NCBI GenBank assembly: GCA_902614905.1
Contig: CACMMN010000008.1
Coordinates: 1 to 34,495 of the forward strand
Origin: an uncultured Pelagibacteraceae bacterium
GTDB taxonomy: Bacteria > Pseudomonadota > Alphaproteobacteria > Pelagibacterales > Pelagibacteraceae
Length of the DNA stretch: 34,495 nucleotides
Direction: 5' to 3'
A program made the position numbers and the translations under genes. Shown piece after piece: positions 22,884 through 26,142 of this stretch. The notes under the pieces are model-generated. The model was not told the origin of the DNA. It saw only the letters and a list, made by a program, of their open reading frames with translations, and ran no database searches. How positions within the stretch are numbered: position 1 is the stretch's first letter; the number at the start of each line of letters is the position of its first letter.

Positions 22884-23216
22884 ATGATTAAAAAAACAAT
22901 CTTATTTGTTATATTTTTTTTCATGACCACAAATTTATTTGCTGCACAAACTCAAATTGCTCAAGTAAATGGAATGATGTGTGTTAAATGTCAGAAAATG
23001 GTTACCAAGGCTCTCCAAGAAGCAATGCCTAATGCAAAGGTAAAAGTATCTTGGCCAGAGGGAGTTGCCGTTTCTAGTTTTGCTGAAAAATCACCTATAT
23101 CAGAAGAAGAATACAAAAACACAATTCTTGGAACTGGATTTGAAGTTGTTAAAGTAATGTCAGTTGATGAAATTATAACAGATGCAGAAAAAGCAAGAAA
23201 ATTAATAGATCAATAA
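22884..23216 (+). CDS. secreted heavy-metal-associated (HMA) domain protein
   Basis: A 110-residue protein with a signal peptide (about residues 1-20, ending NLFA) followed by one ferredoxin-like HMA domain with the metal-binding motif GMMCVKC (C33, C36). The fold is that of CopZ/MerP-type carriers, here placed in the periplasm. Metal identity, Cu or other, cannot be decided. Start supported by AAGGAG 5 bases upstream. It lies 49 bases after msrB and only 6 bases before the ammonium transporter fusion, so it is probably cotranscribed with it. A periplasmic metal carrier next to an ammonium sensor is an unexpected pairing. Confidence 0.8.
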   Translation: MIKKTILFVIFFFMTTNLFAAQTQIAQVNGMMCVKCQKMVTKALQEAMPNAKVKVSWPEGVAVSSFAEKSPISEEEYKNTILGTGFEVVKVMSVDEIITDAEKARKLIDQ

Positions 23217-23222
23217 AATTTT

Positions 23223-25460
23223 ATGACTGTAGCTGATCTTCAGATTTTAATAGATAAGCTGCAGTCAAAAATAAGCCAGTTAGAACTCACAAATAAAGGT
23301 GCACTTAAAGCTACGGAATTTCGACTTGAAGCAATTCTTCAAGCAAATCTTGATACTTTTTGGTTATTGATTTGTGCAATTCTAGTTTTCTTGATGCAAG
23401 CTGGTTTTATGTGCCTTGAGTCCGGCCTATCAAGAAATAAAAATAGTATTAATGTTGCATTAAAAAATATTACTGATTTTGGAATAGCTGTTGTTACATT
23501 TTGGGCATTTGGATTTGCACTTATGTATGGAACAAGTGTTATGGGTTTGTTTGGTGATAAGTTTTATTTTTTCACAACAAAAGTAGCTGGTTATCAAACA
23601 TATTTTGTCTTTCAAGCGATGTTCGTAGCAACTGCAGCAACAATTATTTCTGGAGCTGTTGCAGAAAGGCTAAGATTTTTTTCTTATGTAATTATTACAT
23701 TTGTCACGTCAGGATTTTTGTATCCAATTGTAGGTCACTGGGCTTGGGCATTTAATTTTGACGAACCATCTGAAAAATTTGGATGGCTAGGCAAGATGGG
23801 ATATTTGGATTTTGCAGGCTCATCTGTGGTTCACTCTGTAGGAGGATGGGTTGCTCTTGCAATTCTATTAATTATTGGGAGCAGAACAGGTAGATTTAGA
23901 AAAGATCAAGATAAAAAATTATTTCAAGGCAGCAATACACCTATAGCAGCACTTGGGGCATTGATTTTGTGGTTTGGCTGGTTCGGATTTAATGGTGGAG
24001 CCAATGGGGCAATGGATTTAAAAATTCCATTAATTTTAATTAATACATTTTTGTCTGCTTCTTTTGGTTTAATCTTTTCAAGCATACTAGGAATTTTTGT
24101 CATGAAAAAACCTGAGCCATTATTTATGATTACCGGACCTTTGGCTGGATTAGTCTCAATCACAGCAAGTTGTGCTTATGTAAATCCAAGTGAGGCTATT
24201 TTTATTGGAAGCATTGGAGGACTGCTTTCAGGCTTTGGTATAGTCTTATTAGAAAAATTAAAAATTGACGATGTTGTGAGTGCAATACCAGTTCATCTTA
24301 TTGCTGGAGTTTGGGGATCTTTGTCTGTAGCTATATTTGGTGATTTTGAAATGATGGGTTTAGAAATTTCAAGAATGGAACAATTATACATTCAATTGAT
24401 CGGAGTAACTAGTATTGGAGGGTTTTGTTTTATATCCGCATTCGTAATATTTAAATCCATAAATTATGTTTTTCCTTTAAGAGTTGGAAAAATTCAGGAA
24501 GAATTAGGATTAAATATTTCTGAACATAATGCATCAACAGATACTCATGAATTATTAGAGGTATTAACTAATCAAGCTAAAACTGAAGATTATTCACTAA
24601 GAGCACCACAAGATCCTTTTACAGATAGTGGAATAATTGGAACACAATATAACATTTTAATGGATCGATTAGAACAAAGCGAAAAACAAAAAAACAAATG
24701 GAAGAAAAGAGTATCTTCAGAAATTAAATTAGCAATGAATGTTCAAAAAAAACTTATGCCAAATAGGGATCTCACAAATTATCCTATCTATGGATTAAAT
24801 ATTCCTGCTAGGGAAATTTCTGGTGATTTTTATGATTTTTATCTTCACGATGACCAGGTTTATTTTACTCTATCTGATGTATCTGGAAAAGGTGTGAATG
24901 CTGGGATGGTAATGGCTAAATCAATTACGTTATTTAAAATATTTTCAAAGCTAAAATTTAAACCAAACGAAATTCTACTAGAAATGAATAACGACTTAAA
25001 AGAAACAAATCCAACTGGGACTTTTGTGACTTCAATTGTGGGGTGTTATAATTTAAAAACAGATATTGTAGAAATAGCAAACGCGGGACATCAACCAGCA
25101 TTATACAGAAAAGAAAAGGATTTTAGAGAATTTCCATCTGAAACAACACCACTAGCTATTGTTAAACAAACTAACTCAAATGTTTATAAATTAGAGAGCT
25201 TTAAATTAGATAATGGTAGAATTTATTGTTTCACAGACGGTTTTTCAGAATGTTTGGATGAAAATAATGAAGAATTAGGTATTAATGGAGTTAAAAAATT
25301 AATCCTTAAACATGAAAACCAAGTTTTAAAAAAGGAATTAGATAACGCTACGGAAGAAATAAAACAAAAAAGTCTTAAAAAAAATTATTTTGAGAAAGGC
25401 ATAAAAGATAATAATGATATACTTGATGACGATTTAACTATAATTGGAATTGGAAAATGA
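23223..25460 (+). CDS. ammonium transporter fused to SpoIIE/PP2C phosphatase
   Basis: A 745-residue fusion. Residues 1-42 are hydrophilic and helical, possibly a coiled coil. Residues about 45-415 form an Amt/MEP ammonium channel: the entry phrase MQAGFMCLESGLSRNKN, conserved D196, the twin pore histidines H204 and H358, and phenylalanines F134 and F256; the position matching Ser219 of E. coli AmtB appears to be A260. A linker (about 425-500) with a HAMP- or coiled-coil-like stretch leads to a SpoIIE/RsbU-type PP2C phosphatase (about 500-745) with its metal ligands D535 (SGDFYDFY), D552 (SDVSGKG), D672 (TDGFSE) and D735-D737. The likely role is ammonium-dependent control of a phosphorylated partner on the cytoplasmic side; the partner is not in this window. 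No frameshift or stop separates the domains. Confidence 0.93.
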   Translation: MTVADLQILIDKLQSKISQLELTNKGALKATEFRLEAILQANLDTFWLLICAILVFLMQAGFMCLESGLSRNKNSINVALKNITDFGIAVVTFWAFGFALMYGTSVMGLFGDKFYFFTTKVAGYQTYFVFQAMFVATAATIISGAVAERLRFFSYVIITFVTSGFLYPIVGHWAWAFNFDEPSEKFGWLGKMGYLDFAGSSVVHSVGGWVALAILLIIGSRTGRFRKDQDKKLFQGSNTPIAALGALILWFGWFGFNGGANGAMDLKIPLILINTFLSASFGLIFSSILGIFVMKKPEPLFMITGPLAGLVSITASCAYVNPSEAIFIGSIGGLLSGFGIVLLEKLKIDDVVSAIPVHLIAGVWGSLSVAIFGDFEMMGLEISRMEQLYIQLIGVTSIGGFCFISAFVIFKSINYVFPLRVGKIQEELGLNISEHNASTDTHELLEVLTNQAKTEDYSLRAPQDPFTDSGIIGTQYNILMDRLEQSEKQKNKWKKRVSSEIKLAMNVQKKLMPNRDLTNYPIYGLNIPAREISGDFYDFYLHDDQVYFTLSDVSGKGVNAGMVMAKSITLFKIFSKLKFKPNEILLEMNNDLKETNPTGTFVTSIVGCYNLKTDIVEIANAGHQPALYRKEKDFREFPSETTPLAIVKQTNSNVYKLESFKLDNGRIYCFTDGFSECLDENNEELGINGVKKLILKHENQVLKKELDNATEEIKQKSLKKNYFEKGIKDNNDILDDDLTIIGIGK

Positions 25461-25798
25461 TTTTAAAGTTTGCTAGTTATTTAATAGGAATAATATGGTC
25501 TTATTCATTAATAAAAACTCAATCTGTATTTAGTAAAAAAGCGGGGCTAATATTTAAAATATTTATAACAAAAGTATCTTGGTTTACGCTGATCGCTGCT
25601 ATTTATTTTGGATATAAAAACTTTTCAATTAAACTTTTGTTTATTGGTTTAGTTGTTGGAATTTTAACCGTTAATCTAATTTTTTTTCTGTTTAAAAAAT
25701 TTTTGATACAAAAATTTAATGTAAAGCAATTGAAACTTTTTAAAAGTTTTTTTGAGTATACGTTAATATTCTGGATGATTTATTACGTTTTTTTTTAG
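25457..25798 (+). CDS. small integral membrane protein coupled to the Amt-phosphatase
   Basis: A 113-residue hydrophobic protein I do not recognise, with about four membrane helices (around residues 3-20, 28-50, 57-80 and 92-112) and basic loops. Its ATG overlaps the stop of the Amt-phosphatase gene (ATGA), so it is translated with it. No catalytic motif is visible. A subunit or modulator of the fusion protein is possible from position alone. It converges on the minus-strand lipoprotein gene 8 bases later. Confidence 0.7.
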   Translation: MILKFASYLIGIIWSYSLIKTQSVFSKKAGLIFKIFITKVSWFTLIAAIYFGYKNFSIKLLFIGLVVGILTVNLIFFLFKKFLIQKFNVKQLKLFKSFFEYTLIFWMIYYVFF

Positions 25799-25806
25799 AA
25801 TTGTAA

Positions 25807-26142
25807 TTATCTATAGATACTCAAAGGATCGTAAATACAACCTTTTTTGTCTTGTGTTTCAAAAAATATAGATCGTAATTCTGAACTATGTAATTCTTGA
25901 CAAATTCTTTCTGGATTGACCTCATCTTTGTAACTTTGTTTTGCACTTGAAAATAAGTAGGACCTACCATAAGAGTTTGTGGCTTGTAAAACACTCCCTG
26001 ATTCAAGAAGTGTAACACTTGGACCAATCATTGCAGTATATTGACCACAATTTGTTAATAATAGTAAACAAAAAAGTATAAAATAGCTTCTAAAAGTTAG
26101 AAGTATTTTTACAGAATGATAAAATATTTCTTTTCCAAACAT
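25807..26142 (-). CDS. small lipoprotein of unknown function
   Basis: A 111-residue protein with a long N-terminal hydrophobic stretch (about residues 12-31) ending LLTNC, a good lipobox with C32 as the lipidated cysteine. After cleavage about 80 residues remain, including GPSVTLLESGSVLQATNSYGR and two more cysteines near the C-terminus (in ERICQEL and KKGCIYD) that could form a disulfide. Family not recognised. It follows the glutaredoxin gene by 11 bases on the same strand. A later start is possible but would shorten the signal peptide n-region only. Confidence 0.65.
   Translation of the reverse strand: MFGKEIFYHSVKILLTFRSYFILFCLLLLTNCGQYTAMIGPSVTLLESGSVLQATNSYGRSYLFSSAKQSYKDEVNPERICQELHSSELRSIFFETQDKKGCIYDPLSIYR

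Follow-up and report, generated by a model that had tools for sequence, protein, structure and literature searches.

A SAR11 fusion of an ammonium channel and a PP2C phosphatase: a candidate receptor-phosphatase in a genus without P-II matches

Introduction

What is the function of an ammonium channel (Amt) that carries a protein phosphatase at its C-terminus, and on which protein would the phosphatase act? These questions are raised by a gene for a 745-residue protein on contig CACMMN010000008.1 of an uncultured Pelagibacteraceae (SAR11) bacterium (assembly GCA_902614905.1), of which a stretch of 34,495 bp, referred to here as the window, was analysed. An earlier note, made from the letters of the window, had proposed that this protein senses ammonium and dephosphorylates an unknown partner, giving a nitrogen signal that does not involve PII. 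The results presented below suggest, with a probability that we put at about 0.7, that the fusion is an ammonium receptor-phosphatase that would drive a partner switch of a STAS protein and an RsbW-type kinase without PII. We know of no sensor described for the nitrogen response of SAR11 bacteria, a response that Smith et al. in 2013, to judge from their title, reportedly found to be PII-independent. Among marine planktonic heterotrophs, SAR11 has been described as the most abundant group (PMC13198564).

Results

An intact and conserved fusion gene

The positions of the fusion gene, its domains and its neighbours are given in Table 1. The gene is a single intact frame from ATG to stop, and a profile search confirmed the uninterrupted Amt-linker-phosphatase architecture reported by the earlier note: the N-terminal part matched Pfam family Ammonium_transp (PF00909; E 7.9e-108, 361 bits) and the C-terminal part family SpoIIE (PF07228; E 5.3e-27, 95.4 bits against a cut-off of 25), and the search of the 745 residues gave no family between the two. 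A scan of species genomes, from which the best 80 of 150 matching stretches were kept, yielded 74 loci, and every one of them comes from a record that has Pelagibacteraceae, Pelagibacterales or Candidatus Pelagibacter as its title. The window's genome, which is 81.6% complete with 1.01 Mb in 37 contigs, also encodes a second Amt-PP2C fusion, which has 716 residues and is 55% identical to the one studied here, as well as a GAF-PP2C protein and, as a separate protein, one plain Amt. The alignment comprised sequences of 690 residues or more, namely 104 unique fusions and the two of the window's genome. These 106 fusions fall into 54 of type B, including that of the window, and 52 of type A, including its own paralogue, the two types being about 55% identical.

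The pore residues H204 and H358 (the twin histidines) and D196, which the earlier note had found retained, are invariant in all 106 fusions, as are F130 and F256 (the Phe gate), W173 and the PP2C residues D535 and D552. The profile match and these pore residues place the N-terminal part in the Amt/Mep/Rh family. Among the other PP2C aspartates that it had listed (we take these to be the ones that bind metal), D672 is kept in 105 of 106 sequences, and D736 and D737 in each of the 104 long enough to include them. D735 proved not to be conserved: type B has Asp in 44, Glu in 8 and a gap in 2 sequences, and type A has Ser in 50 of 52. Ratios of non-synonymous to synonymous substitution (dN/dS) between the window and five orthologues were 0.01-0.09 for the Amt domain, 0.00-0.11 for the linker and 0.08-0.10 for the PP2C domain; in four of these pairs dS was close to 1 or higher. 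An assembly error or chance join was rejected, as the fusion is kept in the 53 other type-B copies and the neighbourhood of type B is the same in the closest relative, genome G036, which is 99% identical across the last 369 residues of the fusion.

The Amt half resembles ammonium receptors

In a maximum-likelihood tree rooted at the midpoint, the fused Amts form a single clade (support 100) that is separate from the plain Amts, and the PP2C-fused Amts are monophyletic (support 100). Ks-Amt5, an ammonium sensor histidine kinase, binds two ammonium ions via residues Q24, E31, N47, D50, T51, T109 and T112 (PMC5764959). When the alignment was read by hand, these residues corresponded to Q59, E66, N82, D85, F86, T140 and S143 of the fusion; five of the seven are identical, one is a conservative change (T112 to S143) and one is different (T51 to F86). 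Q59 and T140 are present in 30 of 30 fused Amts and in none of 16 plain ones, and D85 in 30 of 30 and 2 of 16, respectively. These counts cover the aligned Amts; two distant Amts (L202 and L204) dropped by a motif filter are in neither group, and further listed Amts whose sequences were not fetched lie outside them. The nearest solved protein is Sd-Amt1 (PDB 8qj3, 8qj4 and 8qpf), which is titled 'Receptor' and is available in ON and OFF states. It is 46-48% identical to the fusion in the Foldseek alignment, and its sequence match extends to residue 496 of the fusion, i.e. through the linker.

One idea of the earlier note did not survive, namely that a change of AmtB Ser219 to Ala could favour sensing over transport. 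Residue 260, which we take to be equivalent to Ser219 at the S1 recruitment site of AmtB, is Ala in 54 of 54 type-B and Ser in 52 of 52 type-A fusions. Ser is also found in 15 alphaproteobacterial sensors in which an Amt is joined to a histidine kinase (Amt-HK) or to a GGDEF domain, and in the aligned fusion of an Amt with a methyl-accepting chemotaxis protein (Amt-MCP); the fusion of genome G034 has Thr. As Ser is retained in type A and, apart from the Thr of G034, in the other sensor Amts, the change was rejected as a cause of sensing. Ala260 is a fixed difference between paralogues rather than the mark of a sensor, and it might change affinity.

Could the fusion be a regulated transporter instead, i.e. 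an Amt that still imports ammonium, with a PP2C domain that acts locally on the Amt or on nearby nitrogen proteins? The presence of a separate plain Amt in the same genome, the placement in the sensor clade together with the receptor-site residues, and the strong linkage to STAS and RsbW genes in relatives (see below) make this unlikely, although the protein retains the twin histidines, W173, D196 and the Phe gate and the corresponding genes of the cultured strain HTCC1062 are annotated as ammonium transporters (PMC2217521). In addition, the fusion has only some of the bulky helix-1 residues that close the pore of Ks-Amt5 (F62, which many plain Amts also have; L65 and L69 replace Tyr and Phe), so that transport may persist.

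A linker shared with other Amt outputs

The matches listed from 385 genomes of the class include only one genome, that of the window, in which the whole linker plus PP2C was matched. In 20 other genomes among these matches, the match starts at the beginning of the linker and ends before most of the PP2C domain. A long Amt frame was obtained for 17 of these 20 regions, continuing into HisKA and HATPase_c in 16 cases and into PAS-GGDEF-EAL in one; in the remaining three, this linker leads into a kinase-like H-box. Together these results show a common Amt-linker input that has been given different outputs, PP2C being the SAR11 one. The module is thus transferable between kinase, GGDEF-EAL and phosphatase outputs, and serine phosphatase joins the outputs known from Amt receptors. 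As candidate Amt-PP2C fusions of other Alphaproteobacteria, six matches at class or family level with a start inside the linker were checked and rejected, as none of them has an Amt part.

The linker (residues 439-515 of the window's fusion; fusions in loci L153-L172) is conserved across kinase, GGDEF-EAL and PP2C outputs. A further output on the Amt module, the MCP signalling domain, is encoded in locus L195 (1288-3801); in this fusion a half-HAMP match directly follows the Amt (22.7 bits, under the cut-off of 25). Two of four Amt-HK linkers likewise gave sub-threshold half-HAMP matches (E 0.0096 and 0.023), and no Pfam family was found in either SAR11 linker. All HAMP matches being below threshold, a named HAMP domain was rejected for the linker, which resembles the second half of HAMP. 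The PP2C fold matched SiaA (PDB 6k4e) over 260 aligned columns with a TM score of 0.83 by target.

The genus has no P-II match, and STAS and RsbW genes accompany the fusion

A search of 97 genomes of the order gave no P-II match in any of the 38 members of the genus, the window's genome included. P-II was found in 42 of the 97, i.e. in 4 of 10 genomes of other genera of the family and in 38 of 49 elsewhere (counted by hand), and was absent from all 19 Amt-PP2C genomes of this sample. The result for the genus (0 of 38) does not fit a PII-regulated AmtB.

Partner-switch genes were surveyed in 297 genomes of the order with thresholds set by hand. For RsbW-type kinases, HATPase_c_2 matches with E of 2e-14 or lower were accepted, which retained 87 of the 172 genomes with a match and set the weaker ones aside. 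The limit for STAS proteins was an E of 1e-13, with 84 of 89 genomes accepted and five dropped because their only matches were in frames of 531-561 residues. PilB was accepted in 93 of 109 genomes (16 with only PilT-like, ~440-residue or very weak matches were dropped) and PP2C in 97 of 108 (11 with E above 1e-6 were dropped). A match starting at query residue 7 or earlier was scored as Amt-PP2C, which gave 59 of 108 genomes, 17 of them with type B; these include G058, whose 426-residue frame is close to the end of a contig, and G175, whose frame has 646 residues.

The RsbW-type kinase was present in 55 of the 59 Amt-PP2C genomes versus 32 of the 238 others, and STAS and PilB were found in 54 and 53 of the 59, respectively. 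The four Amt-PP2C genomes without a kinase match are the window's own, G175, G232 and G239. Kinase and fusion are located on the same contig in 51 of 55 genomes, and at most 5.1 kb apart in 45 of 55. All 87 kinase genomes contain a PP2C and 84 of them a STAS protein. The co-occurrence of fusion, STAS and kinase genes in SAR11, for which the earlier note had proposed a survey, is thus borne out, and its unknown partner is narrowed to the STAS/RsbW pair, which most relatives encode next to the fusion. This pair is the likely partner, the STAS protein being the candidate substrate.

The 74 loci, a sample that overlaps with the genomes and is not independent of them, gave a similar arrangement. 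RsbW and STAS were seen in 44 loci; among the rest are short contigs, type-A loci at a distance from the pair, and L071 and L072, whose arrangement is like that of the window. The usual order is pilB-pilC-(rsbW-STAS, on the opposite strand)-pilin-pilin-Amt-PP2C A-CxxC gene-Amt-PP2C B, with variants. The MDSSGI motif of STAS was present in 44 of 44 loci, and simple patterns detected the N-box, G1 and G2 motifs of the kinase in 42, 37 and 41 of 44. In G034, which belongs to another genus of the same family, the order is secretin-pilB-pilC-pilin-CxxC gene-Amt-PP2C-prepilin-peptidase-like gene-STAS-RsbW.

That the partner is absent from the window's strain was considered and rejected. Position 52.9 kb of contig C6 of the window's genome (G000) corresponds to 143.9 kb of contig C2 of G036, and STAS/RsbW of G036 are located at 127.8-128.5 kb, ~15-16 kb past the matching point, whereas C6 ends at 59,968. 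The pair is thus placed beyond the end of C6, and a contig gap is the likely reason why it was not found.

All of the 12 genomes searched for sigma factors, six of which carry Amt-PP2C, have just two Sigma70_r2 proteins, in frames of 610-629 and 299-310 residues. This agrees with the sigma-70 and sigma-32 stated for SAR11 (PMC13198564). No cognate alternative sigma factor of a sigma-B-type switch was found beyond these two proteins in any of the 12. With factors of sigma-70 and sigma-32 size as the only ones seen, a sigma-B-like factor is an improbable output. The switch may instead have RpoH or RpoD as its binding partner, or its action on the pilus may be direct.

Correspondence with the cultured strain HTCC1062

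Genome G011 has the order autotransporter-like, CAP-like, symporter-like, Amt-PP2C A, Amt-PP2C B, CxxC protein, small protein, two pilins, two STAS, RsbW, pilC, pilB, several of these names being assigned by eye. Hypervariable region 1 of HTCC1062 is described as autotransporter (0046), lexA/cap (0047), sodium symporter (0048), ammonium transporter (0049, 0050), metal ion transporter (0051), unknown (0052), pseudo-pilin (0053) and pilin (0054) (PMC2217521), an order that G011 matches gene for gene. As rsbW of HTCC1062 is SAR11_0057 (PMC13198564), the two STAS genes would be SAR11_0055 and 0056. We infer that G011 is HTCC1062, in which case SAR11_0049 and 0050, known as ammonium transporters since 2007 (PMC2217521), appear to be Amt-PP2C fusions near rsbW.

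A 2025 phosphoproteome of HTCC1062 describes widespread Ser/Thr/Tyr phosphorylation, names RsbW as the strain's single Ser/Thr kinase and, as no protein phosphatase is annotated, suggests an undescribed one (PMC13198564); if G011 is HTCC1062, SAR11_0049 and 0050 are candidates for it. A concrete set of kinase, phosphatase and switch can now be tested in a cultured strain. A 'phosphatase, sigb regulator' (SAR11_1218) lies among pilin genes in region 4 of the same strain (PMC2217521). Among the matches listed from the open-licence literature, we found no description of an Amt-PP2C fusion or of its PP2C half; the one paper that contains both 'ammonium transporter' and 'SpoIIE' concerns, in its available part, phosphate solubilization in Bacillus.

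These data also bear on whether the PP2C domain has a substrate other than STAS, for instance one of the Ser/Thr-phosphorylated SAR11 proteins, with the linkage reflecting a shared variable island. Such a substrate would fit the widespread phosphorylation in a strain with RsbW as sole Ser/Thr kinase and no annotated protein phosphatase (PMC13198564), and the location of both HTCC1062 genes in hypervariable region 1 (PMC2217521). We nevertheless consider it improbable: anti-anti-sigma factors of the STAS family are the described targets of bacterial PPM phosphatases (PMC11418112), PP2C is present in 87 of 87 RsbW genomes, and the gene order recurs, also in another genus.

Genes around the fusion

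Table 1. Location of the fusion gene, its parts and its flanking genes in the window
Feature	Position	Strand	Basis or remark
Amt-linker-PP2C fusion gene, type B, 745 aa	23223..25460	+	frame and Pfam
Amt (ammonium channel/receptor) domain, residues 47-438	23361..24536	+	Pfam
Ala260 codon, aligned with AmtB Ser219 (S1 recruitment site)	24000..24002	+	alignment
Conserved linker, residues 439-515	24537..24767	+	boundary by eye; half-HAMP-like motif, then helix into PP2C
SpoIIE-type PP2C (PPM) serine/threonine phosphatase domain, residues 543-740	24849..25442	+	Pfam
110-aa CxxC protein	22884..23216	+	signal-peptide-like start by eye; stop 6 bp 5' of fusion gene
113-aa hydrophobic protein	25457..25798	+	start overlaps fusion-gene stop, 4 bp; no Pfam match

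The 6-bp gap upstream and the 4-bp overlap downstream indicate that the fusion gene is probably in one operon with its small flanking genes. The CxxC protein is weakly HMA-like (21.4 bits, below the cut-off of 24.8) and is a possible periplasmic partner of Amt-PP2C. Its gene is found directly 5' of type B in every locus whose contig reaches that far, and also 5' of the Amt-PP2C gene of the other genus (copies: window 22884-23216, L070 11227-11583, L215 12575-12904). That the sensor reads a signal other than ammonium, such as methylamines or a metal from this CxxC protein, is very unlikely despite the weakly HMA-like gene directly 5' of type B and the change of the S1 Ser to Ala in all 54 type-B fusions, as the fusion retains the pore residues and most of those at the ammonium site of Ks-Amt5, and Ks-Amt5 strongly prefers ammonium over methylammonium (PMC5764959).

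Lipoprotein-like genes, alike by eye, recur near Amt-PP2C (window 25807-26142, L063 12571-12864, L065 12365-12691, L215 13037-13327). Small proteins that are alike by eye are encoded beside GAF-PP2C in the window's genome (L007 14749-15042) and near STAS/RsbW in G034 (L070 5511-5909). A FecR protein and a CHASE2-PP2C are additional in some strains; G114, for example, encodes a FecR-domain protein and a CHASE2-PP2C near Amt-PP2C in its pilus locus (L063 9140-12507). The CHASE2-PP2C assignments of the survey of gene order, which also caught Amt-PP2Cs, were set aside. A pilus-locus PilB with an MshEN domain (52 bits), a domain that binds c-di-GMP, was found in L065 (2431-4179).

Discussion

An ammonium sensor-phosphatase in a genus without P-II matches is well supported by sequence, because the Amt belongs to the sensor clade and has Ks-Amt5-site residues, the linker is shared, the PP2C domain is intact and P-II was not matched in any of the 38 genomes. 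To this extent the proposal of the earlier note stands; the response to the ligand and its sign, the substrate and the output are predictions. The Amt-based sensor-transducer is a kind of protein already known, and what appears to be new is a phosphatase as output, together with its connection to a partner switch in a pilus locus of SAR11 without P-II.

The following mechanism may be envisaged. The Amt domain, as a trimer like other Amts, would bind ammonium at the Ks-Amt5-like receptor site. Binding would change the cytoplasmic C-terminus, and this change would pass through the half-HAMP-like linker and its helix to the PP2C domains, whose pairing and activity would be altered as in RsbU. The PP2C domain would then dephosphorylate the serine of the small STAS protein (in MDSSGI) that an RsbW-type kinase phosphorylates. 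External ammonium would in this way set the partner switch with no need for PII, and ammonium could either raise or lower its activity; the output is perhaps type IV pili, as judged from gene location. RsbU itself is switched by a helical linker that pairs PP2C domains, and its sensor domains are proposed to be exchangeable among phosphatases, kinases and cyclases (PMC12143880), a picture that Amt fusions would fit. If an Amt trimer drives PP2C pairing, the mechanism faces the same symmetry problem as that noted for the Ks-Amt5 kinase (PMC5764959).

Several observations weigh against a receptor-phosphatase acting on STAS. Within the receptor site, T51 is replaced by F86 and T112 by S143, and E66 and N82 are also common to many plain Amts; the incomplete pore plug described above belongs here too. 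The structure model, built from 27 sequences, had a mean pLDDT of 64.1, was weak over Amt and linker, and served only to name fold neighbours. STAS, HATPase_c_2 and PilB had no match in the window's own 81.6%-complete genome, and type B lies apart from the noticed pilus genes in both the window's strain and G036, so that the linkage is a property of the family and not of the window locus. RsbW occurs without Amt-PP2C in 32 of 87 genomes, which presumably use other PP2Cs, and 10 of 97 PP2C genomes lack RsbW. The Fisher tests of association take no account of shared ancestry, and HTCC1002 lacks one of the two tandem 'ammonium transporters' (PMC2217521).

A more far-reaching version of the receptor-phosphatase proposal is put forward tentatively, and we hold it to be less probable than not. 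Two paralogous receptor-phosphatases, one with Ser and one with Ala at S1, together with CHASE2- and GAF-PP2Cs in some strains, would all feed one STAS/RsbW switch that controls assembly or use of type IV pili (attachment or DNA uptake) by direct protein action, with no sigma factor involved. If true, this would be an ammonium-gated pilus that could replace part of the PII system, and would provide a phosphatase for a cell thought to have none.

Comparison with known systems

Ks-Amt5 of Kuenenia stuttgartiensis likewise combines an Amt receptor with a C-terminal output, and its Q24, E31, N47, D50 and T109 are identical in the fusion; it differs in having a histidine kinase output and, according to its description, no HAMP-like transducer (PMC5764959), and its pore plug of F27, Y30 and F34 is only partly present in the SAR11 protein. 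The alphaproteobacterial Amt-HK and Amt-PAS-GGDEF-EAL fusions share the Amt clade and the linker motif, with a kinase or a cyclase/phosphodiesterase in place of PP2C. Sd-Amt1 of Shewanella denitrificans is the closest solved relative and matches through the linker; its output is presumably a diguanylate cyclase. SiaA of Pseudomonas aeruginosa is alike in the fold of its PP2C and has a different sensor input.

At the level of the switch, RsbU/RsbV/RsbW and RbaY/RbaV/RbaW of Rhodobacter capsulatus also consist of a PP2C phosphatase, a STAS protein and a HATPase kinase, and for the Rba proteins, too, no cognate sigma factor was identified; the input of RbaY is a receiver domain, whereas that of the SAR11 fusion is an integral-membrane Amt (PMC3999984). 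HmpU-W of Nostoc punctiforme form a partner switch in hormogonium development and motility with a different sensor input, and their STAS protein is described as the output (PMC6495340). The Rba and Hmp systems are thus precedents for a switch without a cognate sigma factor or with STAS as output. Close in gene order are SAR11_0049 and 0050 of HTCC1062, which are arranged as the G011 fusions are and which the available text of their description names only as ammonium transporters, with no mention there of a phosphatase half (PMC2217521).

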